A model generated the notes under the pieces. That model saw only the letters and a list, made by a program, of their open reading frames with translations, ran no database searches and was not told the origin of the DNA. Made by a program: the position numbers and the translations under genes. Positions 2,178-64,000 of a stretch of DNA of 64,000 nt are shown here, piece by piece. Location of the stretch: NCBI GenBank assembly GCA_002270565.1, contig NQMI01000146.1, positions 48,537 through 112,536 of the forward strand. The letters run 5' to 3'. Origin of the DNA: Stenocarpella maydis (taxonomy: Eukaryota > Ascomycota > Sordariomycetes > Diaporthales > Diaporthaceae). How positions within the stretch are numbered: position 1 is the stretch's first letter; the number at the start of each line of letters is the position of its first letter.

Positions 2178-2260
<83 letters not shown>

Positions 2261-5684: not shown

Positions 5685-8358
5685 ACCAGCCCCGCTGAAC
5701 CCAAGGCCGCCGGACCGGCGGGCAGCAGTCCTCAGCCAGCGTGCCCATTGCATGTTCCGTGCGCCCAGGAGACCGGGCACCGTCTCTTACAGTACTGAAA
5801 TGTTCATTTCTTAGAGGAACAAGCCCACCACCTATAGAAATGCCGGGCCTCGCTACGCGCCCAACACCTCTGGGGTGTAGAGCTGGGGGTCAGCTGTTGT
5901 CACCGGCCCGGCCCAAGCACCGGGAGTAGAGGCACACAAGAAAAAGGAACACAACAAAGGAAGATAAGATACGGCACGTTTTTGTCCCTGCACAAATGCG
6001 TGACGAGTGACGATGGTGGGTCGTGAGTGAGGAAGGCTTCGGTTCTTCCTGGGACGGTCGGTCTGCTTCAGTCACCTGTATCATATACACTCGAAAAACA
6101 AAAAGACTCTCCGAAACGAAGACGAATTTTTAGATTTACACTTGCTACCTCGCTACTCTTGGTTTGTGTCGCTTTACCCCCATGGCCCTGCCAGCACATC
6201 CCAGGATCCACAGACGGAAGGGCAGAAGCAGGTGGCTCTAGCTTCCTGCGGTGCTGCCTTGATGGCTGCCACCCGCTTCGGCGTCGGCTTAGACGGGCAG
6301 GCTTTGCTGTTCAGAATACGAGACTGACTGACTCTTGCGTGGAACCCAGGGACGGACTCGCGAGCGAACACTTTCAGTTTCCTCTCGACCCGGCCCATGC
6401 GGTCTCTCGCATGGGATACACCAAACCCAGGCAGCTGGGAGAAAGCTGAGACGACTGCACATGACCAATGGGACCCGATCAAGCTCACGGACGAGAAGGA
6501 CATGATCAGTGGGCCCCTCAAGAGGAGGGCGCGCCCTCCGGGTTTCGATTCGTGAGGCTATGATGCCATCCGGCCCAATAACGCCTACGCGCCCCCCCCC
6601 CCCCGGGAGGGGGCTGCGTGTTTTTCAGCTGTCGTCACGCGCTGAGACCTCGGACCTGCCTTCCTCTGTCGGGTGGCTGTTTTATGTTGAGGGAGCGCCG
6701 GGAACCACGCCTATGCGACGGCATCCCGCGGCCGCCTTCAGACATGCTGGGAGAAGCGGACGCGCTAAGCTCACCGTGCTGGTAGAGGAGTCGCTATATA
6801 GTAGCAGACACAATGGGAGCGGGGCCCCTCGGGACGTCTCCCTTGGCTCGCCAGGCGTTGAGCGTCTGGGGAATTAGAATAGCTGTGCTAGGCGATCCCT
6901 CAGGCGTTGGGTTGTTTACCTGTTCAGATAAGGCCGCCTGTTATTGAGGCCGTGAGTCAGTGGATACCCAAGGTACACATAAGCTCTTGTCTAGGTGTGA
7001 GACCTGAGGCTGGGTTCGTTGCGTGGCTGTGTATCCAGGGCGGTGGGTTCGTCCACAACTCGCCACAAGGCTCCTGACTAGGTAACGGGGACTTTAGTAT
7101 TGTTCGGTACATTAGGACTACGAAGGGGGGACGCCAGATATCCTGGCGCGTGTTTTCGGACTAGGAGGCTCCCCTGTCGCCATGCCCTCTGCCGCTGTGA
7201 TGCCTCTGCTATGACAACGCGCTGGCCCCCAGCTTAAGGATAGCCAGCTATCTGCATATCGGGAGGCGGGTCTGTGTAGTTGGTCGGGCTGGCTGTCCGC
7301 GGGCGCCGGCCGTGTGATGGATCCGGCCGGATCTGCATCTGTCAGGCGCATCTTGGCCACGCCGGGCTGGGGGTGGATACCTGCCGAGTCCGGGTCGGGA
7401 GCTTGTGAAAGATTGGGCCCCGTGTTTTATCCTGGGCGCCATTGCCAATCCATCGATCTGACACGGCGGCTGCCTTGGTTGTGGGTGTGGTTGTGGTTGT
7501 GGTGAGGTCCAGATGTTGGAATCCACAAGTTATGCATTTCATTCAGCCTTGAGCGGTTCAAATACATAGTAGCCACGCGCCTCGTAGACCCAGGGGGTCA
7601 CAGATGAGACAGACATGGAGAGATGGGGCAATTCCATGTTCATGCAGGCTAGTCTGGATTCTCTTGAAGAGCCCGAGAAGGGCTGCTAGCTAGTGTGGGT
7701 TTGGTAGCGTTTGCGGGGGGGGGGGCATCGAAGTGGCCACGACCAAGGGAAGCAAGCCCACAGCGGGAGGGCGGGTCACTTTTGGGAGAGAAGCGCGTGT
7801 GACAGGCACCAGAATGCAACCAACGTACGTCGAGGGTTCCCTGTTGCTTGGCTGCTCGAATAGGCGTAACCTCATGCACCTCATGCACCTTCATATAACG
7901 AGAACCACCGTCGCTTCTCATGTCAACCCCCCCCCAACCAGTTCCTGCCCGGGAGGGGGCTTTTCCGATTCCACTCCGCTCCCAGTTTAAGAAGAGACAT
8001 TTGCACATGCGTACACTCTGGTCTGGTCTTTGATCTTCCCCAGCCCGATGTGGCCCGGCCCCTTCTGCCCATGGCACGCCTGTCCCAGTAATGCCCAGTC
8101 ACACCAACACGTGAATGAGACCACCACGGTTCTACATAGTGTAACCGCACGACATCAGCTCACGTCCACCGCCATCACTGGTCCCTCTGCCTTGGGAGTG
8201 CGGGTTTTACGCCGACCCTTGACCCAGCCTGGCGACTTACGAACTGGTCCACTGCCGAATCCGCACACAGCACCGCTGGCGGCTCTATCACTTCCCTCGT
8301 GGGTGGGACTCGGCAACATTGAATACGCTCCCGCCACGTCCGGCGACATTATCTCAGG
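5685..8358. other. Gene-free stretch with C/G homopolymers
   Basis: No protein family or RNA gene was recognised in these 2.7 kb. It holds a 13-base C run at 6592-6604, an 11-base G run near 7715-7725 and a 9-base C run near 7927. The palindrome partner of 6594 onward begins the right edge of the window. It probably contains the promoter of the MFS gene at its right end. Confidence 0.6.
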
Positions 8359-10249
8359 ATGGGATCCGACGCCGTTGCTGGAGACTGGAAGGAAGGCCAC
8401 ATGCGCATAGAAAGCGATCCCGCGCTCGGCCGGGGCGTTGACTCCAAGAGCGACGATATTGAGCTGCCGGATCGTACCCGGCACAAGCCCGACAGAGGGC
8501 CTGGTGGCCGTCGGTTCCCACGCCTCGGCCTCGACGCCTTGTTCCACGAGTCGCGCGCGTCACAAGACCTCACCGGGGACGGCACCCTTGAGTTCTACAA
8601 GGTCTACAAGAGGAGGTGGTTCGGCCTGGTCCAGCTGACCCTTCTCAACATCGTTGTGAGCTGGGATGTAAGTTCCAAGCGCCCCAACACCTGTCAGTTC
8701 CCCTCCGTCTATAGCCCGTGGCCCCTGCGTGTGGCGAGATGGGGCATACATTGGTGTTGTGGCCTGGGAGGGCAGAGTCCTGCTCGATATGCCTCGATGA
8801 GGCTGACAAAGGAATACCACTCTTGTGCGCCCCCAACACGTGAGGCTTATGCAGTGTCGACGGCGGTGCACCGTACCTGCATCGAGCGACACGAGGCTGA
8901 CCTACCCTGCCCATCCTAGTGGTTGACCTTCTCGCCCGTCGTCTCCAGTGCCGCAGAGTTCTTCAGCACCACCGAGAGCACCATCAACTGGCTCTCCACC
9001 GCCTTCCTCTTGTCCTTTGTCGCCGTCTCCCCCTTGGTCATCTATGTCCTTCACTGGGGGCCCAAGCCATCCATAGTCACCTCCTCGGTGCTCACTCTGA
9101 TCGGCAACTGGATTCGATATGGCGGCACCCGGGCCTCACCTCCCAACTTCGGCGTCGTCATGTTTGGCCAGATACTCATCGCCTTCTCCCAGCCCTTTGT
9201 GCTGGCGGCCCCGACCAGGTACTCGGACCTGTGGTTTACCAATCGCGGCCGTGTGGCCGCCACAGCCCTCATGAGCTTGGCCAACCCCTTTGGTGCTGCA
9301 CTCGGGCAGCTGATCATACCTTTCTGGGTCTCCTCGGCAAGTGACGTGCCTGATGCCGTCTTATATGTGGCCATTATTGTATGCTTTCTTCACAATCCCC
9401 CCCTCCCACACACCCCATCTCATCCCTTGGAACTGCTCACTCACCTGTCATTCAAGGCCACCATCTGCGCAGTCCCCTCGTTCTTCATCCCGGCCAGACC
9501 GCCCACGCCGCCCGCACCCTCGGGCGAGGCCGAGAAGCTCTCCATTCCCGAATCGGCTCGCATCCTCAGCCGCTCCCCGGAGTTCTGGATGCTCTTCATC
9601 CCCTACGCCGTCTACGTCGGCTTCTTCAACTCCATCTCGTCCCTTTTGGAACCAGATGATGGAGCCCTACGGCTTCGATGACACAGAGAGTGGCGTCGCG
9701 GGTGCCGTGCTAATCGTGGTCGGCCTTGTCTCCGCGGCCATCGTCTCCCCCATCCTCGACCGTACCAAGGCCTTCATCCTGTGCGTCAAGGTGGCCATCC
9801 CCCTCACGGCACTGTCCTACCTGGTCTTTATCTGGATGCCGGCCACGCGCGACATTGCGGGCCCATACGTCGTGCTGGCAATCCTCGGCGCCTCGAGCTT
9901 CAGCCTGGTCCCCGTCGCCTCGGAGCTCCTGGTCGAGCTTACGCACCCCGTCAGCCCCGAGGTGACGAGCACCCTGGCCTGGACCGGGGGCCAGCTCCTG
10001 GGCGCAGTCTTCATCATCGTGTGTGACGCGCTCAAGGACGGGCCCGCTGCGGACCCCCCCTTCAACATGACGCGGGCGCTCATCTTCCAAGCCGTGGTCG
10101 CCCTTGCCATCATGCCCATCCCGTTGTGCCTGGGGCTGTTTGGTCGCGGCGACAAGGTTCGCCTGAGGCGGGTCGAGATTGACCGGGACCGGCTGGCTGC
10201 TGAGGAAGCCGCTGCTGCATCGGGTGCTGAGGATGGGCAGCAGACATGA
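8359..10249 (+). pseudogene. FLVCR-type MFS transporter, left copy, frameshifted
   Basis: Exons 8359-8667, 8920-9378 and 9457-10249. The mirrored right copy is open for 519 residues; here an extra G at 9648-9649 (TTTTGG for TTTTG) shifts the frame inside exon 3, so reading from the start stops at 9681. The protein is a multi-pass major-facilitator of the FLVCR/DIRC2 group, whose animal members export haem or carry choline. Signatures are KRRWFGLVQLTLLN at the first helix, WLSTAFLLSFVAVSPLVIY, and LAAPTRYSDLWFTNRGRV followed by ALMSLANPFGAALGQL. Substrate in fungi is not known to me. It converges on ERG27, whose stop lies 302 bases away. Because the other arm is intact and the lesion is a single base, a sequencing error is likelier than a true pseudogene. 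Confidence 0.85.
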
Positions 10250-10550
10250 AGGGGAAGGGGAAGGGAGGATGTTTGCCGTTTCAAAGCTGAGGTAGTACCG
10301 CCGCACAATCACACTCACCCGGGTGCGTTTGATAGATTAATGATGTTGCTCATGACCGCTACTGTGGTGCAAATATTATGATCACTGTATTTACTCATCT
10401 TGGGCTGGGAGGATAAACCCCATGTGCATGAAGCAGAAGTCCGTCCCTGTGATGCTATCGTCAACGGTCGGACTCGAGTCATGTCGCTGGCTGATCAAGC
10501 AACAATGTCTCACACCCGCGAGGGGCACTCGAAAGATGCCAATATCTCGG
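10250..10550. other. Convergent 3' flanks, MFS gene and ERG27
   Basis: These 301 bases separate two stop codons of genes facing each other. No gene or recognisable element is seen. Confidence 0.6.
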
Positions 10551-11103
10551 CTAGGCATGACCGTCCAAGCCCGCCTCTCTCATCCTCGCCTCCCACTCAC
10601 CCCTCAGCCTCTCCATCTCCCGCCAGCACAGCGCCCCCATCTCCTCAAACTCGGCCCTGCTCTCCTGGGTGACAAGCTTGGCCCCGCGCTTCCGGCCCTT
10701 GATCTTCCTCAGCACGCCGGCCGCCGCGCCCCCCTCGCCAGCAGCCTCGTCGAGCCCCTCCACCCTGCCCGACCACCCCCACCCGTCCACCTCGGTCCTC
10801 TTGACCATGGCGTTGCCGCGGAGGTCGCACGCGGACCCCCACTTGACGCTACCCGCGCCGCACGAGTCCAGCAGGCTCTGCGCCGCGAGCGCGAGCCACA
10901 CCATGGCCGCCGCGGCGTTGTACGACGTGTTGGTGTGCCAGGGGGACCCGAGCCACCGCGCCACGTAGGCCGCGAGGGTCCAGAGTTGCTGGAGGACCCA
11001 GGGGAGGGGGAGGATCGTTGTCACGACTATGCCGGGGTGGCACACGTAGACCTTTGGCGGCTGTGGCTGTGACACCTCGCTGCCGTCCCGCTCTGAGGCC
11101 GTA

Positions 11104-11134
<31 letters not shown>

Positions 11135-12142
11135 GTGCTGGTGCTGCTGCTGGCAGTCGCCAGTACGGTGCGCTGTACGCCCGCACGCCCGGCAGTCCCG
11201 CCGTCAGCACCAGAAGGTCCGTAAGCCGCTTGGTGCTCTCGTAGGGGGCGGCCGTGTCTACGGCCTGCAGGTCGCCCGGGCGCAAGTGCTCGCGCGACGC
11301 CTCGATGCTGCCCTCCCAGATCAGCCTCCCCGGGGGTATGTCCGCGTCCTGGCCCTGGCGCCTGCTGAGGAGGGGCAGGATGGCGTGGGCGAACATATAG
11401 TGCCCGAACACGTTGGCGCAGAAGACCTGGCCCACCACCGCCTGCTCCTCGCCGCCCTCGGTGCCGCTGGCGGCCCCGCGCTGCTGCTGCTGCTGCTTCT
11501 TATCCTTCCGCGGCAGCGGGTTGACTGTCGCGCCTGCCCTGCCGATCTTGAAGGTCGGCCACGTGGTGGCCTGGACCCAGCCGGCCGTCAGGAAGTTGCG
11601 CGCGGCGCCGAGCCAGTCGACGCCGGTCCAGCCGCCTACGCCGGCGTTGAAGATGACCGCGTCGAGCCGCGGGACGCGCACGCGGCCCCCCTGGCGGCCC
11701 CCCAGCGCGAGGGTCCCGCCCACGAGCCGCGACGCGGCCGCGTGCACGGTGGTGAGGTCGCACAGGTCGAGCTGCAGGGCGAGGAGGTGGACGCGGGCGG
11801 CGGCGGCGGCGGCGGGGTCGGCGCCCCTGGCCCTGAGCCTCGGCGAGGAGGCGGCGCGGGCGAGGTGCCTGCGCAGCTGGGCGGTGGTCTCGGCGGACTT
11901 GCGGGCGTCGCGGGTGGTGGGGATGAGGATGAGGTGGGAGGTCAGGGAGCGGGTGGCGAGGAACTCGTCGATGAGGCGCTGGCAGATGCCCAGGCCGACG
12001 CCGCTGTAGGTTGTCGGGCGTGAGCAGCTGTATGTGTCTGTGTGACCAGGTGTGCTTGTGCTTGTACGTACCTGTTTGCGCCTGTGACCAGCGCGAAGAA
12101 GGTGTCCTTGGCAGGGACGTCTGCCCACGGTGCGGTGGCCAT
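10551..12142 (-). CDS. ERG27: 3-ketosteroid reductase (ERG27-like SDR), intact left copy
   Basis: Two exons on the minus strand, 12142-12072 and 12003-10551, separated by a 68-base GT-AG intron, give 507 residues. It is a short-chain dehydrogenase: cofactor motif TGANSGVG at residues 20-27 (split by the intron), NAG at about 143-145 and catalytic YESTK at about 278-282. The C-terminal region (VKWGSACDLRGN, RTEVDGWGW) and a hydrophobic patch before it resemble fungal 3-keto-sterol reductases. These reduce the 3-keto group after each C4 demethylation in ergosterol synthesis, in the endoplasmic reticulum with ERG25, ERG26 and ERG28. Alanine-, glutamine- and serine-rich insertions (the serine run from an ATG/CAT repeat near 11105-11133) make it longer than the yeast enzyme. 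The right-arm copy is frameshifted, so this is the usable version. Confidence 0.85.
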
Positions 12143-13438
12143 TGGGCTAGACCCCTTTTTGTTGTGTTGGGCTGCAGCCCTTCAGACACTTGGACGACAG
12201 ACTCGGCGGCCTGACGGATGTCCTTGAGCACCCCCTATCTCGCTCCCTGCTTGGTCCTGGGGGTCCTCTGCGCTGTTGTGGCGGTCGTAAGCTTTCTGGG
12301 CGAGGCAGATCAGATACCAAGCGGCTGGCGGGCCCACAGGCTCAGCTCAGGCGAGAGAAGGTGGTGGTGGGGCGGGGATGGAATGGAAGACAGGGAACAC
12401 AAGGACAAGGTGGTTCGTGGGTGGATTGGCGACGGGAAACCGACATGCGTGGTGCGCTGCTGCCGGTGCTGTCCCTGGCGCCCGGCGCGTCCGACGACAA
12501 GCTCGCAGCCGTCGCGTCGATTGGGTGGGTCTCTTGGACGGCATCCGAAGCTGGTGATGCATGGCCATGGTCCACCCGCGAGTGTGTTCCGGGCTTGTGT
12601 CGGCTCGAGGCTCGCTCGGTTCCGTCTCTTACGCAACCTACCTGGCTGTGGTCTTGCCGTCCTTGGCCAGCATGTTGCGTGGCAAAGCTGCTGTCCTTCG
12701 GAATTTGACGATGCGGCGGCGGCAACTTGATTGCTATCGATTCTCCTGCCGGTCGCTTGTGCTCTATCTATCACGCTTATACCAAAACCTAGGTAGACCT
12801 CGTCGCCGCATAGTGGCTGAGCCTCATGAATCGCATTCCATAGGTTCTTGCAGTTCTCGGAGCGCTGGGGGTTGAGCCGCGTCCTCGGTGGGGACTGTGT
12901 CGCCCATTTTGTGGAAGTTGTCTAGCCTCAAGAAGAAAGTGCAGTAAAGATTGCGTAGTTTCCAGGACGACTCTTTCTGCTACTTGTTTACCGAGGTATT
13001 TAGCTGATTTCGTTTTCAATCCGGTTACAGTTCTCTTTATAAACAAAGGGGTGCGACAGTCCCTTCACGAGTCATTAACGCTCAAAGGCCCGTTTTAGAT
13101 AGTAAATACAATGCCAAGGTGTTTACATAGGAGGCGCGCGCCTAGAGCGTGTTGGTTGGTACTACTCCGTATGTAAAGGCGAAGGAGGGTGGTCGCCGTA
13201 CTCCTAACCCTGATCCATATTCACCACATTCACATGTGTGTTTGAGCACATCCGCATTCCCATCTGGACTTCGACATTCTTTTATCATCTGCAGCTTCAC
13301 AGTCGAAGATCATCTTACCGGCGGTCAAGATTTACCCGCGGCTGTGACTAAAATCCCTTGCCCCCCCCCCCCAGCTCATAAAACTTTGCCCGAGATTAGC
13401 AGTCATAAAATAAAATCAACCATGTGAGCGTAGTCGCC
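12143..13438. other. Divergent intergenic region, ERG27 and OB-fold gene
   Basis: Promoter region for two genes reading outward. A tiny 27-residue frame (12824-12907, minus strand) starts with ATG but has no recognisable continuation. A C run at 13361-13372 sits about 65 bases before the OB-fold gene; the right arm reads A in place of the first C. Confidence 0.55.
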
Positions 13439-14701
13439 ATGAAGAGGCTCACCATCGTCCTGGCCGGAGCCCCCGAGGCCGACCAGCTTGACTGGAGCAC
13501 CCCCGGCCTTCTCCAGGCCTTTCAGGACTCGATCGCAGCCTTCGCACTTCTCCCACAGCAGGCAAAACATGCTCTCCCATCCTGCACACCATCTCAGGAT
13601 AATTCGCTCCTGGACATGCCTGTGTGGCGCTCGCTCTCCCTCAGGCGCGCTCACGTCCACACCGGCTTCTCCCAGCAGCATGACCTCGACATCGTGAACC
13701 ACTTCCCCACCAGCGCCGACTTCCTCACCACCGCCGGCATATCCTCCGAGGCCTCTTCCCAGAGTCTGAGCCAGGAGGGCGCCTCTGGCATTGAGAGCAG
13801 GCTGCTTGACGAGTGGTACGAGCACTCGCTTGCCCTGCACGACGAGCTAGCGTCGTCGCAACTCGTCCCGCGCGACTCTCAGGACCACCACACCAGCCGC
13901 GGCGACGAAGGGACCGAGCCCTCCTCGGAAGGTGCTCCTGGCCACACAAGGTCTGTCTCTTTCTCTACCAGCGACGAGGGGGATACGACGACGATCCTCA
14001 CCGTCGACAACGATGCCACCATCGTCGTGACGACGCCACTGCAACCCGGCCGTCAGCGCACCGGCGCCGGCCCCTCAGACCACCTCTCGGACCTTCAAGA
14101 CATCCCGTCGGCCAGGTGCCTGGAGTCGATCCAGCCACAGACCATGACAGTGACGCTCATCGTGGGGATAATCAGCATCGCGGCTCCGCGCACGGTCGAG
14201 ACCCGCTTCGGCGCCACCAGGTCACTGGTCGAGGTCCTCATCGGCGACGAGACCAAGTCGGGCTTCTCGGTGACGTTCTGGCTGTCCGCGGCCGAGCTGG
14301 ACGGCTCAGGCCCACTGGCCGGGCTCGGGGCCCAGGACGTGGTGCTCATACGCAACGTCGCGCTCAACGTCTTCCGCGGCAGGGTCTACGGCGGCAGCCT
14401 GCCGAGGGGCAGGACGGGCGTGTACCTGCTGCACCGTGGGCGTAAGCTTGGGGCCGGGGACGACGGCGGCCACTACACGGCCGCCGACCTGGCCAAGGCT
14501 GGGAGGCGCGGCGCTCGGCGGATCCACCCCCAGCTGGAGAAGACACGGCGGGTGAGGGACTGGGTGCTGAAGTTTGTCGGCGGCGGCAGGCCCGCTGGCG
14601 GAAATGATATGGGCACTCGGAGGTCGCTGCGGACGAGGAAGGGGAAGCAGAGGGCCGCTCCTAGGGATTGGAACCAGCCTCCGCCGTTGGACTCGCAGTG
14701 A
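13439..14701 (+). CDS. Uncharacterised OB-fold nucleic-acid-binding protein, left copy
   Basis: A single exon of 420 residues. I chose the ATG at 13439; an upstream ATG at 13422 is followed at once by a stop. Residues 1-110 contain a conserved-looking block (LTIVLAGAPEADQLDW, WRSLSLRRAHVHTGF). Residues 110-235 are Ser/Asp/Thr-rich and probably disordered. Residues about 238-350 look like an OB fold: alternating hydrophobic strands TVTLIVGIISIAAP, SLVEVLIGDETKSGFSVTFWL, DVVLIRNVALNVF and GVYLLHRG. The tail is strongly basic (RRSLRTRKGKQR). This suggests a single-stranded DNA or RNA binding protein in the style of RPA- or shieldin-like factors, but I cannot name it and the function is inferred. 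The right-arm copy is identical in frame. Confidence 0.72.
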   Translation: MKRLTIVLAGAPEADQLDWSTPGLLQAFQDSIAAFALLPQQAKHALPSCTPSQDNSLLDMPVWRSLSLRRAHVHTGFSQQHDLDIVNHFPTSADFLTTAGISSEASSQSLSQEGASGIESRLLDEWYEHSLALHDELASSQLVPRDSQDHHTSRGDEGTEPSSEGAPGHTRSVSFSTSDEGDTTTILTVDNDATIVVTTPLQPGRQRTGAGPSDHLSDLQDIPSARCLESIQPQTMTVTLIVGIISIAAPRTVETRFGATRSLVEVLIGDETKSGFSVTFWLSAAELDGSGPLAGLGAQDVVLIRNVALNVFRGRVYGGSLPRGRTGVYLLHRGRKLGAGDDGGHYTAADLAKAGRRGARRIHPQLEKTRRVRDWVLKFVGGGRPAGGNDMGTRRSLRTRKGKQRAAPRDWNQPPPLDSQ

Positions 14702-40055: not shown

Positions 40056-40324
40056 TCCGACCCGGCAGGCCCATTTCAGTAGTAACCGTACACAGCTGTC
40101 AACACCACCATAATACTTCAGCTTCAACCATAGTTTACACCATAACTACGGAAGATATAGCATTATCTAATAATAAACCTGCTTAAAATTAAATAAGGAA
40201 GGGGTTAATGATACTTTCTGGGCTATAAATATTTAGCGGTGCAGGTATACACCTAAATAGGCCTAATGGGGAGGATCCCACTTTAGCTATGCCTGGATGC
40301 TACCGAAATGGGCCTGCCCGGCTG
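40056..40324. mobile_element. MITE-like element, right copy
   Basis: Mirror of 30271-30540 with the same terminal inverted repeats and AT-rich core; differs by one base in a G run at 40268-40271. Confidence 0.4.
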
Positions 40325-50531: not shown

Positions 50532-51415
50532 GCTGGGCGACGATACCCACTGCAGATGGTGGATAACCAGAGCTGGCTGTGGCGTTCAGATAGCGACCTT
50601 CTGCTCAGGCCTGTCTGTTCGTGGGGATATCATTGGCAGCTGACGGCGGGAGACACTGGCAGTCATTGTCAGTGGAAGCTCTCACCAGACCCTTGACCTA
50701 CCCGCCTGGCGGGGTGCAGCAGGCCCAGGGTATAGATAGTAGTAGCAGCCTTGAACTCACAAGGGAGGACAGCCTGCTTTAAAGTGGGCATTTGCGATCT
50801 TTATACCAGCATCTATGATATCCTAGACAAGAAGAGAGATGGTCCACCAGATCGTATGCTCCCCTGCTTGCGCCTTTGGAAAGGGGCCATAGAGCACTCG
50901 AGGCGGGTTAGGAGAGAGACAGTTGCGATGGATAGCTCTAGTGTACTCAGCCGCCGGCCGAGCAAGAGCCGCTGACCCCAGCTCCCCGAGTGTGATGAGC
51001 TGCGGGCGGTGAGCAATACTGCCGGTCTGGCGTCATGTATGGGCAGGAGAATGTCTCCCGAGGCCGGTTCTGCCTGCCTTGACGGGGTCGAAGCAACGTT
51101 CACTTCCGCCCAGGACCGCCGATCACCACACACCCTCCTCGATACAACCCTCTCCCTGATATCTTCTACAATGTCTGCCAAAAGCGCCCCATTTTCACTT
51201 TGAGCTGGTGAACAGGTCCGCTTGAGCGACGCCATTAACGCTACCGACAATTCCCACATTCCCTCCCAGGCACCTCGTCTTGGAGGCCGAATCTATTCTC
51301 CTTGTCCTCCCCCAGAAGTCTTGCGCGTCGCGAACGCAACTGGGCACTTCCAGCGCAAACACTCTTGACTGCCACGACCTAGACCGTCTCAACGCAACCT
51401 CCACGCACCGTAAAC
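50532..51415. promoter_or_regulatory. Mirror of the RXT2/TRAPPC11-like divergent promoter
   Basis: Reverse complement of 19179-20062; contains the start-proximal regions of both genes and no gene of its own. Confidence 0.5.
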
Positions 51416-53065
51416 ATGTCATTAACACGCGAACAAATCCTCTTTGCCGACCTCGCCAAGGCCATGAAAAAGACCGTGGCCAGACAGGCCATCGGTAAGA
51501 GCTTCCGGTGCCCGTCACTGGTAAGGATCTTGCTGCTGACACCAGCCCTTTTGCCAGAATCCGACTCCGACTCCGAGATCCAACAGACCACCAATCGCGG
51601 CAACAAGTTGAAGAAAAGGGCGCGGTTTGTCCGCCAGGGCAAACTAGGACCACCCACCGGGCCCGCAGTCTACAAGGAGGCACGTTCCAAGCCCAGGGCG
51701 CGACCAAGTGTGGCGGCTCATTAGGACAATCGCTAATTACAATGCATAGGAGGTCGAGCATGCAGGTTATAAGCGATCCATCATAAGTCGCAACCCGCCC
51801 CTATTTGACGAAGACGGCTACAGCATCGACAGCGATGACGATGATCAGCAGGTCCAAGACGCAATTGTCGCTGCGGCCGAGACTGATCCCTACTCGTCGA
51901 TTCATATTGAGCGTATGTAACGCCAGGATTCGCAGCACGCCGCAGAGAACGGCCTCTCTGAATCATCACTGACTTGCCTCTAGAACTCCTCGCGCCCCTC
52001 ACTGCAGTCACGGACCTGCCCGCCCACCCCACACTCTCGAGACCTTTCAAATCGACTGCCCTGAAGGAATTGACAAACCAAGCTTGCGATCTCATGCACA
52101 AGGAGAACATTGCACTGTGGAAAGTGCGGCCACTCCTCACAAGACTCAGCGGGGACCACACCTGGGTGACTCCCGAGATGATGCTGGGCGCCAATGACCG
52201 AGAAATGTTCAGAAATAGTTTTGGCTTGCGTACGATGAAGCGCAAGAGGTCACAGGAAGAAGGGCTGGAAGGTATTTCAAGTACAAATATCAATGGCAGC
52301 AGCGCAGCTCGACCTTCCCTGAACGGGGACCACTATGGAGCCGCCACCGAGGAGGCTCAGGCCCATGAGAAACCGGAAACATCAAACAAAAACGTGGTTA
52401 TGACGAACAGCGATGGCAGCAAGGCGGACAGGTCTGCAAACGACAAAGACGGTCAGGGAGCCTTCAATGAGGGGCAGGGAGCAGGAAGGGTTGTGCCGCT
52501 CACCACCAGTGACGGAAAACCGGATGAGCATGAGTTGAATCCAGCCAACGGCACTTCGGCGAAACAAAAAGGGAAGCAACCTGGTCCCACACAAGGCACA
52601 GCAGACAGTGATGTTGCTATGTTGGATGCAAGCGCTGCGCCTGGTTTTGTCGAGATCGCAGACCAAAACGGCAGCCAAGCTGCATCCCCATCAGCGCCAT
52701 CCGCCGACGACCATTTTATTCACCCGATATTCCTTGCGCCAAAGCTAGCGCATCCCGACCGTGATCTAGGCCTCCCGGAACAGGAGGCGGAGGACGTTCG
52801 GCGACTACTCCAGCTGTACGTCCAAAAGCAAGAAGAGGTATGCCGCGGTACTGAGAAGCTGTACCATGGCCTCCTCAAGGCGGATCGCATGCGAAAAACC
52901 GTACTAGAGTGGTCGAAGGCTGAGGCGCACGTAGGAGAGATGTCTGATGGCGAGGATTGGTACGACAAAGAGGAGTGGGGCCTCACGGAAGACCTGAAGA
53001 AGGGCCAGGATGAGGAAGAAGAGGACACGACGCAGACCCAGAAGAAGACTAGAAATCGGAAGTAA
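51416..53065 (+). CDS. RXT2: Rpd3L histone deacetylase subunit RXT2, right copy
   Basis: Exons 51416-51494, 51558-51679, 51750-51912 and 51984-53065, 481 residues, identical to the left copy. Exon 2 to exon 3 joins AVYKE to EVEHAGY only if the intron runs from GC at 51680 to AG at 51749. The alternative GT sites nearby give the wrong phase or a stop. The exon end AAGGAG is acceptable for a GC donor. The acceptor could also be three bases later (GAG at 51752), removing one Glu. Confidence 0.85.
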
Positions 53066-55892
53066 AGTCGCGGCCGCTGCGACTCTTCGACACCGCATTC
53101 CACGAGGCGATTGATTTTCCACCGTCTACGAGCGTATCATTTATTAGGGCAATTTCCGAGATCTGGCTCTATAGCATTCACATTCGAGTGTTCTTCTGGG
53201 GTATGGGTCTAGAAGTACGGGTTCGACACATTTCGAAGCCTTTCTGCGACCACTACTCTTCATTATGTTGGTACATAGCACTAGCCGCGAGAGCCGAGGG
53301 ACGGATGGATTTAAAGGTGGTCGGGCAGGAGTGTTTGAATCAAAATATCAACACTGAGTTGCTCTTTCCTGGAGGTCATGGGCGCCATGAGGCCGGAGAC
53401 GACGATGGATTAGGGGTCGGCAAAGATGTCATAAGCATACAGGAGTACCACAAGCTCATAAGCGTTGCCATGCAGCCCAGAGAAACGAGTGCGCAGTTTC
53501 ATGCATTTCTGTAGGGCAGCGGGCAGGCAATACGGCCAACGGGAGACGCGAATAAAGACGTTTCCCGCTGCCCTCCAGTCTGTCTCAGGGGAAGGGAGGT
53601 AAATACGGTACGCCTCTAGCCTTTTTTCGCATAGCAGGTTCAATTACACAAACCATGTAATACCTGCGATGCGGTCCGCGCTGCTACTTTTATGATTGGC
53701 CATATCAGCCGTTGTAGGTCCTGAGAGGTACCTGTAGGCGAGCCGTTTAGTATCATTCCTAACTGCCGGATAGTGATTAGGTAGTTATGCATGATGGCCT
53801 GACTAGGGCCAGATATGCAGATGCAGAGGGGAATGGCGAGAAGAAGAGAACCGATGAAATGACATCAAAAACCCTCAAGAGAAACGTAAGCCCACCAAGA
53901 CTCACCCACACATTTGAGGCGGACACAAACAACCCCCGTATTTGCCAACTTAGAATGTCCTAGTTCCAAAACTTTTACTTCTTCACTATGGACTTTTAGC
54001 ATTAGTATATGTACAAGATTAATACTAGACTTTCTTCTTAGAAACCAGTAGCTAGTTTAGCCAGCCTGATAGTCCCTGGTAGGTAGAAACCCGGCGATTT
54101 CGCTGGCCTACTAATGTATTTGCATCGAATCCAGTGCTTTTCGGACTGCCCGTCCCAACTTCTACACTGCACCAACGCAAACTCGTTTTGAACCAAACAG
54201 AACTCTGGTCTTTTCGAGAAACTCACACACAGGAGGTCCACGACAACCAAGTTACCTGGAACAAGGTGATACCTAGTCAACATCTGACTCACGGAGATCC
54301 ATCTTGTACGCAACAAGCCGGCTTCTGAGAGATTAAGGTTACAGCAAAACGACACCTTAATAAGCCTTCTCGAGTCAACATGCTGCACATATTCAATATT
54401 CCGATGTGCAATGATTGCTTTAACGACGCAAAGAGCTTTGGCTTTGTCACTCTGGCAATCTCTATCATTATCTTACTCTTGCTAGCCATTGGGCAATGGT
54501 GGACCGGCAGTCCCCTAATAAACCCCGAAACCGCCATTATCGCCTTCGCTACAATAGCCCTATCTTGTACTAGCGCGGCAAGTCTGGCTATAGAATGTGC
54601 ATATCAGGGGTATCTTACTGCTACAGCAGGAGACTATAACCATGCTCACCTTGCTGATATTATAAGGAGGAATTGAAATGCTTTGTGCCATAGGTTGACT
54701 TACTGGTTGGCTTATAGTTTGTGGCTGGTTCGTCTTATGGCCTGGTACCTGCGCAAGGTCCTTCGAAGGACTAACTAAAGCTGGAAATAAGGAGGATCAG
54801 GATAACAAATTCATGGACGCTGAGTTGACATTATGACAGATTTTTAATCGAAACTCTACTTATACTAACTGGTAGTTGAAAGAGAGATTTTCAACTGCTG
54901 TTATAATTCGATTAGGACAGGAGTTTTACAACGGGCGATAACTCCGTCTTCTCCCCCCAAGTTTGTGTTCTCCCCCGTTCAACCCACACTCCAAAGCTGA
55001 CGGGGCGATCGTTACGGCTATAATAGAACCACCCCGACTTCAACCAGATTGAGTTGAGATGCAGAGTATTCAGACAGAACCCAATTTCTAGCAGGCACAG
55101 CCACTTATTAACATCGGTCTCGGGCCTGGTATCCTCCTCCCGACGGAATTTAAATTGTTGCTTATAATATAAGGGTCGATACCTGTAGTATCCAGCAGCC
55201 TGGCTGCTGTGAGTTGTGCCGTTTCACAATGCCGGAATGATGGATGGGGTACAAAGGAAGCGGTGTGAAGGTACTTCAGAATTGGGTATAGTTTTCTTCA
55301 GGGGCTTATCCGTCAGGAAACGCACCTAAAACTCGCTCACAGCTCTTAATATTGAATGACTCAATGTCAGCTTGGCTTATATTACTTGCAGGACCTTTTG
55401 TCCAAGCCTATCAGGTATCCGTCACGACAAGTCAAGAAAGCATCGCGATTTTATTTCGTGAGCTGTCCTATCCCCGCTATCGACACCGAGGCGAAGGCAT
55501 GATGGACGCGGCTGGGCAACCTGATGCGGAAGGTGATGCTGGCACAAAAGATTTAGCATTTGAGTGTTTCGATCATGATGGTCTGGTCGTATGTCCCGCA
55601 TATCCATCATCATGCCTTTGGTGTGTTTGACAGATACTATGGGGTCTATCAATGTGGAATGCCTCTTAAGCTGGCGTGTGTTCTCCGTTTCCCGGTTGTG
55701 GGAGTACTCTGTTCAGATGAGTGACGTGGACGGAAAAGAGCGGAAAATTAGAGGCTATGCTGAACTCAGTTGTGGAAATTTCAAAAGCAGCCGGGTATCA
55801 CGGGAACAAGTCTATCCTGCCCAAGAGCGGATGTCCGCTCCCAAATTTGCGCCAGATATGCAAGGACAATGTCCCAGCCCAGAGCAACCCCA
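53066..55892. other. Mirror of the AT-richer island
   Basis: Reverse complement of 14702-17528. Contains the small membrane-protein frame and otherwise nothing recognisable. Confidence 0.55.
54380..54676 (+). CDS. Predicted small two-helix membrane protein, right copy
   Basis: Mirror of 15918-16214, identical 98-residue product with two hydrophobic helices and an N-terminal CNDC motif. Function unknown; may be a chance frame. Confidence 0.35.
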   Translation: MLHIFNIPMCNDCFNDAKSFGFVTLAISIIILLLLAIGQWWTGSPLINPETAIIAFATIALSCTSAASLAIECAYQGYLTATAGDYNHAHLADIIRRN

Positions 55893-57155
55893 TCACTGCG
55901 AGTCCAACGGCGGAGGCTGGTTCCAATCCCTAGGAGCGGCCCTCTGCTTCCCCTTCCTCGTCCGCAGCGACCTCCGAGTGCCCATATCATTTCCGCCAGC
56001 GGGCCTGCCGCCGCCGACAAACTTCAGCACCCAGTCCCTCACCCGCCGTGTCTTCTCCAGCTGGGGGTGGATCCGCCGAGCGCCGCGCCTCCCAGCCTTG
56101 GCCAGGTCGGCGGCCGTGTAGTGGCCGCCGTCGTCCCCGGCCCCAAGCTTACGCCCACGGTGCAGCAGGTACACGCCCGTCCTGCCCCTCGGCAGGCTGC
56201 CGCCGTAGACCCTGCCGCGGAAGACGTTGAGCGCGACGTTGCGTATGAGCACCACGTCCTGGGCCCCGAGCCCGGCCAGTGGGCCTGAGCCGTCCAGCTC
56301 GGCCGCGGACAGCCAGAACGTCACCGAGAAGCCCGACTTGGTCTCGTCGCCGATGAGGACCTCGACCAGTGACCTGGTGGCGCCGAAGCGGGTCTCGACC
56401 GTGCGCGGAGCCGCGATGCTGATTATCCCCACGATGAGCGTCACTGTCATGGTCTGTGGCTGGATCGACTCCAGGCACCTGGCCGACGGGATGTCTTGAA
56501 GGTCCGAGAGGTGGTCTGAGGGGCCGGCGCCGGTGCGCTGACGGCCGGGTTGCAGTGGCGTCGTCACGACGATGGTGGCATCGTTGTCGACGGTGAGGAT
56601 CGTCGTCGTATCCCCCTCGTCGCTGGTAGAGAAAGAGACAGACCTTGTGTGGCCAGGAGCACCTTCCGAGGAGGGCTCGGTCCCTTCGTCGCCGCGGCTG
56701 GTGTGGTGGTCCTGAGAGTCGCGCGGGACGAGTTGCGACGACGCTAGCTCGTCGTGCAGGGCAAGCGAGTGCTCGTACCACTCGTCAAGCAGCCTGCTCT
56801 CAATGCCAGAGGCGCCCTCCTGGCTCAGACTCTGGGAAGAGGCCTCGGAGGATATGCCGGCGGTGGTGAGGAAGTCGGCGCTGGTGGGGAAGTGGTTCAC
56901 GATGTCGAGGTCATGCTGCTGGGAGAAGCCGGTGTGGACGTGAGCGCGCCTGAGGGAGAGCGAGCGCCACACAGGCATGTCCAGGAGCGAATTATCCTGA
57001 GATGGTGTGCAGGATGGGAGAGCATGTTTTGCCTGCTGTGGGAGAAGTGCGAAGGCTGCGATCGAGTCCTGAAAGGCCTGGAGAAGGCCGGGGGTGCTCC
57101 AGTCAAGCTGGTCGGCCTCGGGGGCTCCGGCCAGGACGATGGTGAGCCTCTTCAT
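55893..57155 (-). CDS. Uncharacterised OB-fold protein, right copy
   Basis: Mirror of 13439-14701, 420 residues from the ATG at 57155, with the same OB-like region and basic tail. No coding difference was seen between the arms. Confidence 0.72.
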   Translation of the reverse strand: MKRLTIVLAGAPEADQLDWSTPGLLQAFQDSIAAFALLPQQAKHALPSCTPSQDNSLLDMPVWRSLSLRRAHVHTGFSQQHDLDIVNHFPTSADFLTTAGISSEASSQSLSQEGASGIESRLLDEWYEHSLALHDELASSQLVPRDSQDHHTSRGDEGTEPSSEGAPGHTRSVSFSTSDEGDTTTILTVDNDATIVVTTPLQPGRQRTGAGPSDHLSDLQDIPSARCLESIQPQTMTVTLIVGIISIAAPRTVETRFGATRSLVEVLIGDETKSGFSVTFWLSAAELDGSGPLAGLGAQDVVLIRNVALNVFRGRVYGGSLPRGRTGVYLLHRGRKLGAGDDGGHYTAADLAKAGRRGARRIHPQLEKTRRVRDWVLKFVGGGRPAGGNDMGTRRSLRTRKGKQRAAPRDWNQPPPLDSQ

Positions 57156-58451
57156 GGCGACTACGCTCACATGGTTGATTTTATTTTATGACTGCTAATC
57201 TCGGGCAAAGTTTTATGAGCTGGGGGGGGGGGTCAAGGGATTTTAGTCACAGCCGCGGGTAAATCTTGACCGCCGGTAAGATGATCTTCGACTGTGAAGC
57301 TGCAGATGATAAAAGAATGTCGAAGTCCAGATGGGAATGCGGATGTGCTCAAACACACATGTGAATGTGGTGAATATGGATCAGGGTTAGGAGTACGGCG
57401 ACCACCCTCCTTCGCCTTTACATACGGAGTAGTACCAACCAACACGCTCTAGGCGCGCGCCTCCTATGTAAACACCTTGGCATTGTATTTACTATCTAAA
57501 ACGGGCCTTTGAGCGTTAATGACTCGTGAAGGGACTGTCGCACCCCTTTGTTTATAAAGAGAACTGTAACCGGATTGAAAACGAAATCAGCTAAATACCT
57601 CGGTAAACAAGTAGCAGAAAGAGTCGTCCTGGAAACTACGCAATCTTTACTGCACTTTCTTCTTGAGGCTAGACAACTTCCACAAAATGGGCGACACAGT
57701 CCCCACCGAGGACGCGGCTCAACCCCCAGCGCTCCGAGAACTGCAAGAACCTATGGAATGCGATTCATGAGGCTCAGCCACTATGCGGCGACGAGGTCTA
57801 CCTAGGTTTTGGTATAAGCGTGATAGATAGAGCACAAGCGACCGGCAGGAGAATCGATAGCAATCAAGTTGCCGCCGCCGCATCGTCAAATTCCGAAGGA
57901 CAGCAGCTTTGCCACGCAACATGCTGGCCAAGGACGGCAAGACCACAGCCAGGTAGGTTGCGTAAGAGACGGAACCGAGCGAGCCTCGAGCCGACACAAG
58001 CCCGGAACACACTCGCGGGTGGACCATGGCCATGCATCACCAGCTTCGGATGCCGTCCAAGAGACCCACCCAATCGACGCGACGGCTGCGAGCTTGTCGT
58101 CGGACGCGCCGGGCGCCAGGGACAGCACCGGCAGCAGCGCACCACGCATGTCGGTTTCCCGTCGCCAATCCACCCACGAACCACCTTGTCCTTGTGTTCC
58201 CTGTCTTCCATTCCATCCCCGCCCCACCACCACCTTCTCTCGCCTGAGCTGAGCCTGTGGGCCCGCCAGCCGCTTGGTATCTGATCTGCCTCGCCCAGAA
58301 AGCTTACGACCGCCACAACAGCGCAGAGGACCCCCAGGACCAAGCAGGGAGCGAGATAGGGGGTGCTCAAGGACATCCGTCAGGCCGCCGAGTCTGTCGT
58401 CCAAGTGTCTGAAGGGCTGCAGCCCAACACAACAAAAAGGGGTCTAGCCCA
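57156..58451. other. Mirror of the ERG27/OB-fold divergent region
   Basis: Reverse complement of 12143-13438. The homopolymer near 57222-57232 is eleven G followed by T where the left arm has twelve C. No gene recognised beyond the 27-residue frame at 57687-57770. Confidence 0.55.
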
Positions 58452-59460
58452 ATGGCCACCGCACCGTGGGCAGACGTCCCTGCCAAGGACACCTTCTTCG
58501 CGCTGGTCACAGGCGCAAACAGGTACGTACAAGCACAAGCACACCTGGTCACACAGACACATACAGCTGCTCACGCCCGACAACCTACAGCGGCGTCGGC
58601 CTGGGCATCTGCCAGCGCCTCATCGACGAGTTCCTCGCCACCCGCTCCCTGACCTCCCACCTCATCCTCATCCCCACCACCCGCGACGCCCGCAAGTCCG
58701 CCGAGACCACCGCCCAGCTGCGCAGGCACCTCGCCCGCGCCGCCTCCTCGCCGAGGCTCAGGGCCAGGGGCGCCGACCCCGCCGCCGCCGCCGCCGCCCG
58801 CGTCCACCTCCTCGCCCTGCAGCTCGACCTGTGCGACCTCACCACCGTGCACGCGGCCGCGTTCGCGGCTCGTGGGCGGGACCCTCGCGCTGGGGGGCCG
58901 CCAGGGGGGCCGCGTGCGCGTCCCGCGGCTCGACGCGGTCATCTTCAACGCCGGCGTAGGCGGCTGGACCGGCGTCGACTGGCTCGGCGCCGCGCGCAAC
59001 TTCCTGACGGCCGGCTGGGTCCAGGCCACCACGTGGCCGACCTTCAAGATCGGCAGGGCAGGCGCGACAGTCAACCCGCTGCCGCGGAAGGATAAGAAGC
59101 AGCAGCAGCAGCAGCGCGGGGCCGCCAGCGGCACCGAGGGCGGCGAGGAGCAGGCGGTGGTGGGCCAGGTCTTCTGCGCCAACGTGTTCGGGCACTATAT
59201 GTTCGCCCACGCCATCCTGCCCCTCCTCAGCAGGCGCCAGGGCCAGGACGCGGACATACCCCCGGGGAGGCTGATCTGGGAGGGCAGCATCGAGGCGTCG
59301 CGCGAGCACTTGCGCCCGGGCGACCTGCAGGCCGTAGACACGGCCGCCCCCTACGAGAGCACCAAGCGGCTTACGGACCTTCTGGTGCTGACGGCGGGAC
59401 TGCCGGGCGTGCGGGCGTACAGCGCACCGTACTGGCGACTGCCAGCAGCAGCACCAGCAC

Positions 59461-59491
<31 letters not shown>

Positions 59492-60044
59492 TACGGCCTC
59501 AGAGCGGGACGGCAGCGAGGTGTCACAGCCACAGCCGCCAAAGGTCTACGTGTGCCACCCCGGCATAGTCGTGACAACGATCCTCCCCCTCCCCTGGGTC
59601 CTCCAGCAACTCTGGACCCTCGCGGCCTACGTGGCGCGGTGGCTCGGGTCCCCCTGGCACACCAACACGTCGTACAACGCCGCGGCGGCCATGGTGTGGC
59701 TCGCGCTCGCGGCGCAGAGCCTGCTGGACTCGTGCGGCGCGGGTAGCGTCAAGTGGGGGTCCGCGTGCGACCTCCGCGGCAACGCCATGGTCAAGAGGAC
59801 CGAGGTGGACGGGTGGGGGTGGTCGGGCAGGGTGGAGGGGCTCGACGAGGCTGCTGGCGAGGGGGGCGCGGCGGCCGGCGTGCTGAGGAAGATCAAGGGC
59901 CGGAAGCGCGGGGCCAAGCTTGTCACCCAGGAGAGCAGGGCCGAGTTTGAGGAGATGGGGGCGCTGTGCTGGCGGGAGATGGAGAGGCTGAGGGGTGAGT
60001 GGGAGGCGAGGATGAGAGAGGCGGGCTTGGACGGTCATGCCTAG
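58452..60044 (+). pseudogene. ERG27: 3-ketosteroid reductase (ERG27-like), right copy, frameshifted
   Basis: Exons 58452-58522 and 58591-60044. An extra T at 58862-58863 (GCGTTCGCGG against GCGTCGCGG on the left) breaks the frame after about residue 113 (HAA), before the NAG and YxxxK motifs. As written, this copy would make only the cofactor-binding half of the enzyme. The left copy is open throughout, so the difference is more likely a sequence error than real decay. ATG, intron and all other motifs match the left copy. Confidence 0.85.
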
Positions 60045-60345
60045 CCGAGATATTGGCATCTTTCGAGTGCCCCTCGCGGGTGTGAGACATTGTTGCTTGA
60101 TCAGCCAGCGACATGACTCGAGTCCGACCGTTGACGATAGCATCACAGGGACGGACTTCTGCTTCATGCACATGGGGTTTATCCTCCCAGCCCAAGATGA
60201 GTAAATACAGTGATCATAATATTTGCACCACAGTAGCGGTCATGAGCAACATCATTAATCTATCAAACGCACCCGGGTGAGTGTGATTGTGCGGCGGTAC
60301 TACCTCAGCTTTGAAACGGCAAACATCCTCCCTTCCCCTTCCCCT
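60045..60345. other. Mirror of the MFS/ERG27 3' flanks
   Basis: Reverse complement of 10250-10550; nothing recognisable. Confidence 0.6.
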
Positions 60346-62235
60346 TCATGTCTGCTGCCCATCCTCAGCACCCGATGCAGCAGCGGCTTCCTCAGCAGCC
60401 AGCCGGTCCCGGTCAATCTCGACCCGCCTCAGGCGAACCTTGTCGCCGCGACCAAACAGCCCCAGGCACAACGGGATGGGCATGATGGCAAGGGCGACCA
60501 CGGCTTGGAAGATGAGCGCCCGCGTCATGTTGAAGGGGGGGTCCGCAGCGGGCCCGTCCTTGAGCGCGTCACACACGATGATGAAGACTGCGCCCAGGAG
60601 CTGGCCCCCGGTCCAGGCCAGGGTGCTCGTCACCTCGGGGCTGACGGGGTGCGTAAGCTCGACCAGGAGCTCCGAGGCGACGGGGACCAGGCTGAAGCTC
60701 GAGGCGCCGAGGATTGCCAGCACGACGTATGGGCCCGCAATGTCGCGCGTGGCCGGCATCCAGATAAAGACCAGGTAGGACAGTGCCGTGAGGGGGATGG
60801 CCACCTTGACGCACAGGATGAAGGCCTTGGTACGGTCGAGGATGGGGGAGACGATGGCCGCGGAGACAAGGCCGACCACGATTAGCACGGCACCCGCGAC
60901 GCCACTCTCTGTGTCATCGAAGCCGTAGGGCTCCATCATCTGGTTCAAAAGGGACGAGATGGAGTTGAAGAAGCCGACGTAGACGGCGTAGGGGATGAAG
61001 AGCATCCAGAACTCCGGGGAGCGGCTGAGGATGCGAGCCGATTCGGGAATGGAGAGCTTCTCGGCCTCGCCCGAGGGTGCGGGCGGCGTGGGCGGTCTGG
61101 CCGGGATGAAGAACGAGGGGACTGCGCAGATGGTGGCCTTGAATGACAGGTGAGTGAGCAGTTCCAAGGGATGAGATGGGGTGTGTGGGAGGGGGGGATT
61201 GTGAAGAAAGCATACAATAATGGCCACATATAAGACGGCATCAGGCACGTCACTTGCCGAGGAGACCCAGAAAGGTATGATCAGCTGCCCGAGTGCAGCA
61301 CCAAAGGGGTTGGCCAAGCTCATGAGGGCTGTGGCGGCCACACGGCCGCGATTGGTAAACCACAGGTCCGAGTACCTGGTCGGGGCCGCCAGCACAAAGG
61401 GCTGGGAGAAGGCGATGAGTATCTGGCCAAACATGACGACGCCGAAGTTGGGAGGTGAGGCCCGGGTGCCGCCATATCGAATCCAGTTGCCGATCAGAGT
61501 GAGCACCGAGGAGGTGACTATGGATGGCTTGGGCCCCCAGTGAAGGACATAGATGACCAAGGGGGAGACGGCGACAAAGGACAAGAGGAAGGCGGTGGAG
61601 AGCCAGTTGATGGTGCTCTCGGTGGTGCTGAAGAACTCTGCGGCACTGGAGACGACGGGCGAGAAGGTCAACCACTAGGATGGGCAGGGTAGGTCAGCCT
61701 CGTGTCGCTCGATGCAGGTACGGTGCACCGCCGTCGACACTGCATAAGCCTCACGTGTTGGGGGCGCACAAGAGTGGTATTCCTTTGTCAGCCTCATCGA
61801 GGCATATCGAGCAGGACTCTGCCCTCCCAGGCCACAACACCAATGTATGCCCCATCTCGCCACACGCAGGGGCCACGGGCTATAGACGGAGGGGAACTGA
61901 CAGGTGTTGGGGCGCTTGGAACTTACATCCCAGCTCACAACGATGTTGAGAAGGGTCAGCTGGACCAGGCCGAACCACCTCCTCTTGTAGACCTTGTAGA
62001 ACTCAAGGGTGCCGTCCCCGGTGAGGTCTTGTGACGCGCGCGACTCGTGGAACAAGGCGTCGAGGCCGAGGCGTGGGAACCGACGGCCACCAGGCCCTCT
62101 GTCGGGCTTGTGCCGGGTACGATCCGGCAGCTCAATATCGTCGCTCTTGGAGTCAACGCCCCGGCCGAGCGCGGGATCGCTTTCTATGCGCATGTGGCCT
62201 TCCTTCCAGTCTCCAGCAACGGCGTCGGATCCCAT
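60346..62235 (-). CDS. FLVCR-type MFS transporter, right copy, intact
   Basis: Exons on the minus strand are 62235-61927, 61674-61216 and 61137-60346, giving 519 residues. The frame runs through [15 protein letters not shown], where the left copy has an extra G. About 100 cytosolic N-terminal residues precede the first helix. The remaining hydrophobic segments fit a 12-helix MFS, including [33 protein letters not shown] and [22 protein letters not shown]. Substrate is not predictable beyond the FLVCR/DIRC2 group (haem, choline or other cargo). Plasma or organelle membrane is expected. This copy should be preferred over the left one. Confidence 0.88.
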
Positions 62236-64000
62236 CCTGAGATAATGTCGCCGGACGTGGCGGGAGCGTATTCAATGTTGCCGAGTCCCACCCACGAGGG
62301 AAGTGATAGAGCCGCCAGCGGTGCTGTGTGCGGATTCGGCAGTGGACCAGTTCGTAAGTCGCCAGGCTGGGTCAAGGGTCGGCGTAAAACCCGCACTCCC
62401 AAGGCAGAGGGACCAGTGATGGCGGTGGACGTGAGCTGATGTCGTGCGGTTACACTATGTAGAACCGTGGTGGTCTCATTCACGTGTTGGTGTGACTGGG
62501 CATTACTGGGACAGGCGTGCCATGGGCAGAAGGGGCCGGGCCACATCGGGCTGGGGAAGATCAAAGACCAGACCAGAGTGTACGCATGTGCAAATGTCTC
62601 TTCTTAAACTGGGAGCGGAGTGGAATCGGAAAAGCCCCCTCCCGGGCAGGAACTGGTTGGGGGGGGGTTGACATGAGAAGCGACGGTGGTTCTCGTTATA
62701 TGAAGGTGCATGAGGTGCATGAGGTTACGCCTATTCGAGCAGCCAAGCAACAGGGAACCCTCGACGTACGTTGGTTGCATTCTGGTGCCTGTCACACGCG
62801 CTTCTCTCCCAAAAGTGACCCGCCCTCCCGCTGTGGGCTTGCTTCCCTTGGTCGTGGCCACTTCGATGCCCCCCCCCCCGCAAACGCTACCAAACCCACA
62901 CTAGCTAGCAGCCCTTCTCGGGCTCTTCAAGAGAATCCAGACTAGCCTGCATGAACATGGAATTGCCCCATCTCTCCATGTCTGTCTCATCTGTGACCCC
63001 CTGGGTCTACGAGGCGCGTGGCTACTATGTATTTGAACCGCTCAAGGCTGAATGAAATGCATAACTTGTGGATTCCAACATCTGGACCTCACCACAACCA
63101 CAACCACACCCACAACCAAGGCAGCCGCCGTGTCAGATCGATGGATTGGCAATGGCGCCCAGGATAAAACACGGGGCCCAATCTTTCACAAGCTCCCGAC
63201 CCGGACTCGGCAGGTATCCACCCCCAGCCCGGCGTGGCCAAGATGCGCCTGACAGATGCAGATCCGGCCGGATCCATCACACGGCCGGCGCCCGCGGACA
63301 GCCAGCCCGACCAACTACACAGACCCGCCTCCCGATATGCAGATAGCTGGCTATCCTTAAGCTGGGGGCCAGCGCGTTGTCATAGCAGAGGCATCACAGC
63401 GGCAGAGGGCATGGCGACAGGGGAGCCTCCTAGTCCGAAAACACGCGCCAGGATATCTGGCGTCCCCCCTTCGTAGTCCTAATGTACCGAACAATACTAA
63501 AGTCCCCGTTACCTAGTCAGGAGCCTTGTGGCGAGTTGTGGACGAACCCACCGCCCTGGATACACAGCCACGCAACGAACCCAGCCTCAGGTCTCACACC
63601 TAGACAAGAGCTTATGTGTACCTTGGGTATCCACTGACTCACGGCCTCAATAACAGGCGGCCTTATCTGAACAGGTAAACAACCCAACGCCTGAGGGATC
63701 GCCTAGCACAGCTATTCTAATTCCCCAGACGCTCAACGCCTGGCGAGCCAAGGGAGACGTCCCGAGGGGCCCCGCTCCCATTGTGTCTGCTACTATATAG
63801 CGACTCCTCTACCAGCACGGTGAGCTTAGCGCGTCCGCTTCTCCCAGCATGTCTGAAGGCGGCCGCGGGATGCCGTCGCATAGGCGTGGTTCCCGGCGCT
63901 CCCTCAACATAAAACAGCCACCCGACAGAGGAAGGCAGGTCCGAGGTCTCAGCGCGTGACGACAGCTGAAAAACACGCAGCCCCCTCCCGGGGGGGGGGG
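62236..64000. other. Mirror of part of the 5.7-8.4 kb gene-free stretch
   Basis: Reverse complement of about 6594-8358. It ends inside an 11-base G run at the window edge. No gene recognised. Confidence 0.6.

Follow-up and report, generated by a model that had tools for sequence, protein, structure and literature searches.

A 57-kb palindrome at the end of a contig

Is a 57-kb inverted duplication with nearly identical arms part of the chromosome of a filamentous ascomycete, or was it produced on the way to the assembly? The locus in question lies in a window (i.e., the whole stretch of DNA analysed here, 64,000 nucleotides, corresponding to C52:48537-112536) at the end of contig C52 (112,536 bp), within an assembly of 53,543,916 bases in 312 contigs, which we searched. 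Self-BLAST of the window returned a single reverse-strand match, 6594-64000 against 64000-6594, at 99.965% identity. Aligned to each other, the arms measure 28,704 and 28,703 bp, meet at 35297/35298 with a spacer of zero, and differ at ten places, comprising three substitutions and seven one-base indels. These values bear out the sequence-only reading, which had described a near-perfect palindrome of at least 57 kb at 6594..64000, with arms of about 28.7 kb that are more than 99.9% identical and abut without a spacer, and which had arrived at an identical count of substitutions and indels. The exact zero-spacer arm at 35297 extends over 653 bp, the longest within the window, compared with 7-8 bp in five base shuffles of the window and 9 bp in C52:1-55129; chance is therefore excluded as its source. 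The two arms and their outer boundary are as follows.

6594..35297, plus strand: left arm, read as genuine chromosome and continuous with the unique flank at 1-6593
35298..64000, minus strand: right arm, an inverted copy of the left arm up to the end of C52
6592..6604, plus strand: C13 tract marking the palindrome's outer boundary, mirrored by the G11 tract that terminates the contig

The right arm makes up the final 28.7 kb of C52 and reaches its last base, such that palindrome and contig stop together and no sequence follows the folded copy on this contig, in agreement with a long-read fold-back artefact. TTAGGGTTAGGG occurs once on C52, in the left flank, and the contig stops inside the arm. 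To ask how often the arm is represented in the assembly, we relied on three queries. A 2-kb probe from within the arm (20400-22400) gave exactly two matches, both of them C52 arms (both candidates scored). Two longer queries, 6000-25900 (19.9 kb) and 25800-35297 (9.5 kb), found only C82 and short family matches among the matches listed, with 19 of 21 and 23 of 24 candidates scored, respectively, and C52 itself unlisted, so that these two queries leave room for a further copy.

The unfolded junction on contig C82

A second contig, C82 (89,925 bases), repeats the left arm over its first 3,507 bases and then runs past the fold into different DNA. Two features of the left arm are needed to follow this junction.

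31881..35297, plus strand: left-arm stretch duplicated on C82 (C82:1-3507, 94% identical), where C82 runs past the fold
34106..35297, minus strand: Delta24-sterol reductase-like gene, 3' portion only; the fold truncates the gene, and C82 carries the 5' portion at about 3508-3939

Used as a query, C82:3200-10000 recovered itself and both C52 arms, the latter through its initial 315 bases, and nothing else; the 6.5 kb tested beyond the fold on C82 is single-copy. In total, 86 kb of DNA distal to the fold is retained on C82, with no terminal deletion (a mosaic culture would look alike). The C82 junction and the continuity of the gene across it show that the normal, unfolded sequence coexists with the folded form in the same assembly.

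The reductase-like gene, on the minus strand, crosses this junction. A single blastx frame at C82:3939-3433, which matches residues 1-169 of the homologues, extends across the fold at C82:3507, and a left-arm query ending at the fold matches homologues from residue 145-149 onward. Across eight aligned homologues, invariant residues occur on both sides of the join between C52 and C82, and the fold falls at residue 235 of the C82 frame. The C82 frame shifts between C82:3433 and 3424, which is on the arm side of the join, and the remaining protein is encoded from C82:3424 on. Two frames meant to test the join had no Pfam match. These alignments show that the 5' part of the gene, missing from C52, sits on C82, ordered and in frame across the fold. 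The true order is most likely the left part of C52 followed by C82, and the right arm is most likely absent from the chromosome.

The presence of both an unfolded continuation and the missing gene part on C82 makes the palindrome most likely an artefact. We put the probability that it is no chromosomal feature but a fold-back molecule that was built into the end of a contig at about 0.93. The earlier judgement from sequence that an artefact was likelier than a recent rearrangement is thus supported by the unfolded junction, by the in-frame gene and by the 6.5 kb of single-copy DNA past the fold. A palindrome of this kind can be exposed from the assembly alone, by asking whether some other contig begins with the unfolded continuation and carries the missing gene part there.

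The fold point

The centre of the palindrome coincides with a short symmetry that is native to the chromosome.

35291..35304, no strand: fold point, a native perfect 14-bp palindrome with 7-bp arms and no spacer

C82 has the same 14 bases at the fold and a different sequence after them. Across 83,833 bp of C52, there are 12 palindromes of 14 bp (about 1.4 × 10−4 per base), and given this rarity it is unlikely that the fold landed on one by accident. A fold at such a site is what a fragment end that snapped back would be expected to give, its own two strands becoming joined there. The position of the fold points to a physical fold-back molecule over a purely computational join, and is compatible with an origin of that molecule in vitro as well as in vivo.

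Differences between the two arms

The ten differences between the arms bear on whether the copies have had time to diverge. Five of them fall in assigned coding frames, at three places.

9648, no strand: one-base indel; the MFS transporter frame is broken in the left arm and open in the right
11732, no strand: one-base indel; ORF 10551-12146 (531 aa) is split in the right arm and open in the left
34580..34644, no strand: three arm differences; the reductase-like frame breaks in the left arm and is open for 397 codons in the right

Frame breaks thus occur on both arms, at two places in the left and one in the right, and these three places hold 5 of the 10 differences; the frame effect covers these five, the other five having no assigned coding frame. 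The open right-arm frame of the reductase-like gene includes a short stretch that deviates from the homologues, and neither arm agrees fully with C82. By position, 5 of the 10 differences are less than 2.1 kb from the fold (binomial P = 4 × 10−4, for a cut-off set post hoc). Errors distributed over both arms are what residual consensus error would give if the two copies shared reads, and they give no sign of real divergence. That the differences are residual consensus errors, and not the outcome of evolution, is supported for the five in coding frames and inferred for the rest.

Could the fold have formed in the cell?

The best surviving alternative is a true inverted duplication formed in vivo and present as a mosaic, with folded nuclei alongside normal ones, which would represent a hairpin-derived dicentric palindrome in a filamentous fungus. 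It would have begun with a break beside the 14-bp palindrome, followed by resection, intrastrand annealing and fill-in; the resulting hairpin-capped chromosome would then have been replicated into a dicentric palindrome. The near identity of the arms is in line with such an origin, and so is the centre on a short native inverted repeat. In the part of the yeast literature available to us, inverted duplications are centred on natural inverted repeats of 3-15 bp and are accompanied by a terminal deletion (PMC10622511), and the 7-bp-arm inverted repeat on C52 is within the range given there for fold-back priming in S. cerevisiae lacking Sae2/Mre11 nuclease activity. The central repeat therefore fits in vivo fold-back priming as well as it fits an artefact, a point that counts against the latter as far as that source goes (PMC10622511).

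Unlike the S. cerevisiae inverted duplications described in the available text of that study (PMC10622511), the locus studied here retains its distal DNA as well as an unfolded junction, both of which would have been lost had the event become fixed. Furthermore, a dicentric is unstable, nothing comes after the right arm where the contig merely stops, and the arm differences break reading frames in a manner that resembles consensus error. The distal DNA fits an artefact or a mosaic, and the centre fits an artefact and an in vivo event alike. Overall, we consider an in vivo origin improbable. If the mosaic reading were true, with the palindrome in a minority of nuclei, the assembly would have sampled both folded and normal junctions, and the locus would be a naturally occurring fold-back inverted duplication.

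Sequence quality of C82 near the join

The artefact reading leans on C82, the start of which is only 94% identical to the arm. Over the 3.4-kb overlap, C82 differs from the arm by 87 insertions, 38 deletions and 16 substitutions, which are clustered and leave difference-free stretches of up to several hundred bases each between them. Among the one-base insertions in C82, 36 of 55 extend an adjacent identical base. Within the HMG-CoA synthase exon, where 43 of the events fall, C82 stays free of stops for at most 69, 235 and 183 codons in its three frames, versus 399 codons in the left arm. Judged by this pattern, the C82 overlap is partly corrected long-read sequence, in which read error rather than a diverged paralogue accounts for the differences. 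The insertion-rich error suggests PacBio-type reads. The C82 copy of the reductase-like gene has frame errors on either side of the join, and its residues 1-169 are 56-57% identical to the homologues, compared with 79-84% for the arm part. The clustered C82 errors and the arm differences near the fold indicate that the region adjacent to the fold was poorly covered or polished. This low quality near the join weighs against an artefact, and C82 may rest on few reads here.

It could be proposed that the start of C82 is itself a chimera or a diverged duplicate and that the palindrome is the true chromosome. The 94% identity of C82:1-3507 to the arm, the poor quality of this contig end and the frame errors flanking the join would agree with such a proposal. 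However, clustered, insertion-dominated differences separated by several hundred identical bases are unlike the divergence of a duplicate, and a random chimera would not yield the missing 5' part of a gene directly at the join, ordered and in frame. We consider this scenario highly improbable. Its variant in which C82 is a diverged paralogue beside a real palindrome was rejected on the error pattern and the gene continuity.

How a fold-back artefact could have formed

In the artefact reading that we favour, a fragment end near the GC-rich 14-bp palindrome in the reductase-like gene would have snapped back, and the hairpin would have joined both strands, taking the place of an adapter. A long read would then have travelled out along one strand and returned along the other, and the assembler would have accepted this fold-back read as the end of C52. 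The chromosome would proceed from window position 35297 into C82, as the assembly shows, and the ten arm differences would be leftover consensus errors. Left uncorrected, such an artefact would make 28.7 kb with at least five genes look duplicated, leave the reductase-like gene truncated and hide the C52-C82 join.

Fold-back reads are a well-established artefact. According to the accessible part of one survey, fold-back reads amount to about 0.55-0.6% of ONT genomic reads, are suspected to originate in library preparation and can tangle assembly graphs (PMC12870357). Another source, also available in part, puts inverted-repeat reads at 0.18-7.33% when nanopore libraries are prepared by ligation (PMC13141652). 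As these two sources describe them in their available text, the second half of a fold-back read is the first on the opposite strand, often with no sequence between, as on C52, and adapters are not necessarily found at the joint (PMC12870357, PMC13141652). Unlike the fold-back reads described there, the C52 case is known solely from the assembly, as a contig end of 57 kb, and its arms are 99.97% identical.

The sequencing platform introduces a further consideration. The portion of the survey that is accessible reports fold-backs as virtually absent in PacBio HiFi and Mas-Seq data, with none systemic in three PacBio samples (PMC12870357). The fold-backs it describes are mainly from ONT and virtually not from PacBio HiFi, yet the C82 error suggests PacBio-type reads, and this mismatch argues against an artefact to the extent of that text (PMC12870357). 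Another parallel is offered by the palindromic PacBio reads addressed by Pacasus, which, in the available part of that report, stem from missed or missing SMRTbell adapters or from whole-genome amplification; in a non-amplified PacBio control, 0.5% of reads were flagged, partly as false positives (PMC6218980). As on C52, those inverted duplications are carried into assemblies, and the insertion-dominated error of C82 suggests the same type of reads. In contrast to missed-adapter reads as presented there (PMC6218980), the joint on C52 coincides with a native palindrome, something that a missed adapter by itself would not predict. Arms of 28.7 kb are also long for one fold-back read, which counts against an artefact, except if the assembler used reads of the reverse strand to walk back.

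Other suspect joins and contig ends

Other contigs of the assembly show signs of false joins, which favours the artefact reading. Near position 438287 of C100, a telomere array faces a 6-N gap with other sequence beyond it, and the 2.2 kb running inward from the array is 99.96% identical to its counterpart on C56 (array at about 2250-2480, with N before it). The junction in C100 is likely a scaffolding misjoin. C106:6367-7366 and C160:1-1000 share 1,000 identical bases, which represent either an unmerged overlap or a repeat. The end of C40 (C40:127403-127462) is a 60-bp self-palindrome with 30-bp arms, one mismatch and no loop; this end is probably another fold-back, centred like the C52 one on a GC-rich core (GGC/GCC).

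We compared terminal fold-backs of at least 12 bp between contig ends and internal sequence. The set comprised 103 ends, 10 of them mostly N, with the C52 tail and the N-filled C56 start outside it, and arms longer than about 200 bp were undetectable by design; four contigs supplied the 300 control draws, mostly-N draws being skipped. Fold-backs were present at 3 of the 93 usable ends versus 1 of the 300 internal draws (Fisher P = 0.043; 0.14 if the weakest is dropped). The three ends are those of C40 (30 bp, no loop), the C71 start (26 bp, AT-rich, with an 18-base loop) and the C80 start (12 bp, with a 16-base loop). The enrichment at contig ends is weak and does not establish that such artefacts are common in this assembly.

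Five control tails (the last 2 kb of each contig) had no long fold-back listed. C40 showed the 60-bp one, the last 75 bp of C51 were found at one other place, and the tails of C20, C53 and C83 are dispersed repeats (best 40 of 59, 847 and 918 candidates scored, respectively). Unlike these five, C52 ends in a copy of its own interior, and it starts with dispersed elements in its first ~185 bp. On C1, C20, C51, C53 and C250, the initial 1000 bases read as N throughout, representing either gaps or withheld sequence.

A join made purely in silico would dispense with a fold-back molecule: at the 14-bp palindrome, the assembler would have crossed over from the left arm to the opposite strand of that arm. 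Such a join would agree with a fold on a short palindrome and with the other suspect joins, but it is extremely unlikely, since 14 bp of overlap falls far below what a long-read assembler accepts unless some read bridges the joint.

Gene content of the arms

The sequence-only reading had listed nine gene models per arm, a count that we did not reproduce. Pfam names five genes in each arm, i.e., an MFS transporter, an RXT2-like gene, a TRAPPC11-like gene (in two ORFs), a BCS1-like AAA ATPase and an HMG-CoA synthase, and the Delta24-sterol reductase-like gene cut at the fold was identified via its homologues. Two further long ORFs in the arm had no Pfam match, and no tRNA or Rfam RNA was found within the window. 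The closest named homologues of the reductase-like gene are from Diaporthe and other Diaporthales, and Diaporthe proteins are 74-81% identical across its left-arm part. For the TRAPPC11-like gene, the best species-named match is from Fusarium (57%), with higher matches at 78-82%.

The HMG-CoA synthase gene (31976-33175) adjoins the reductase-like gene (34106-35297), and the long ORF at 10551-12146 in the same arm, which has no Pfam match, is short-chain-dehydrogenase-like by eye. These three may constitute a loosely grouped set of genes for sterol metabolism. The interval from the HMG-CoA synthase gene to the reductase-like gene contains a dispersed short element (33619-33772), which is 73-96% identical at no fewer than about 20 places in the genome. 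At 2118-2260 of the window, there is an ACAG tetranucleotide array of about 36 units.
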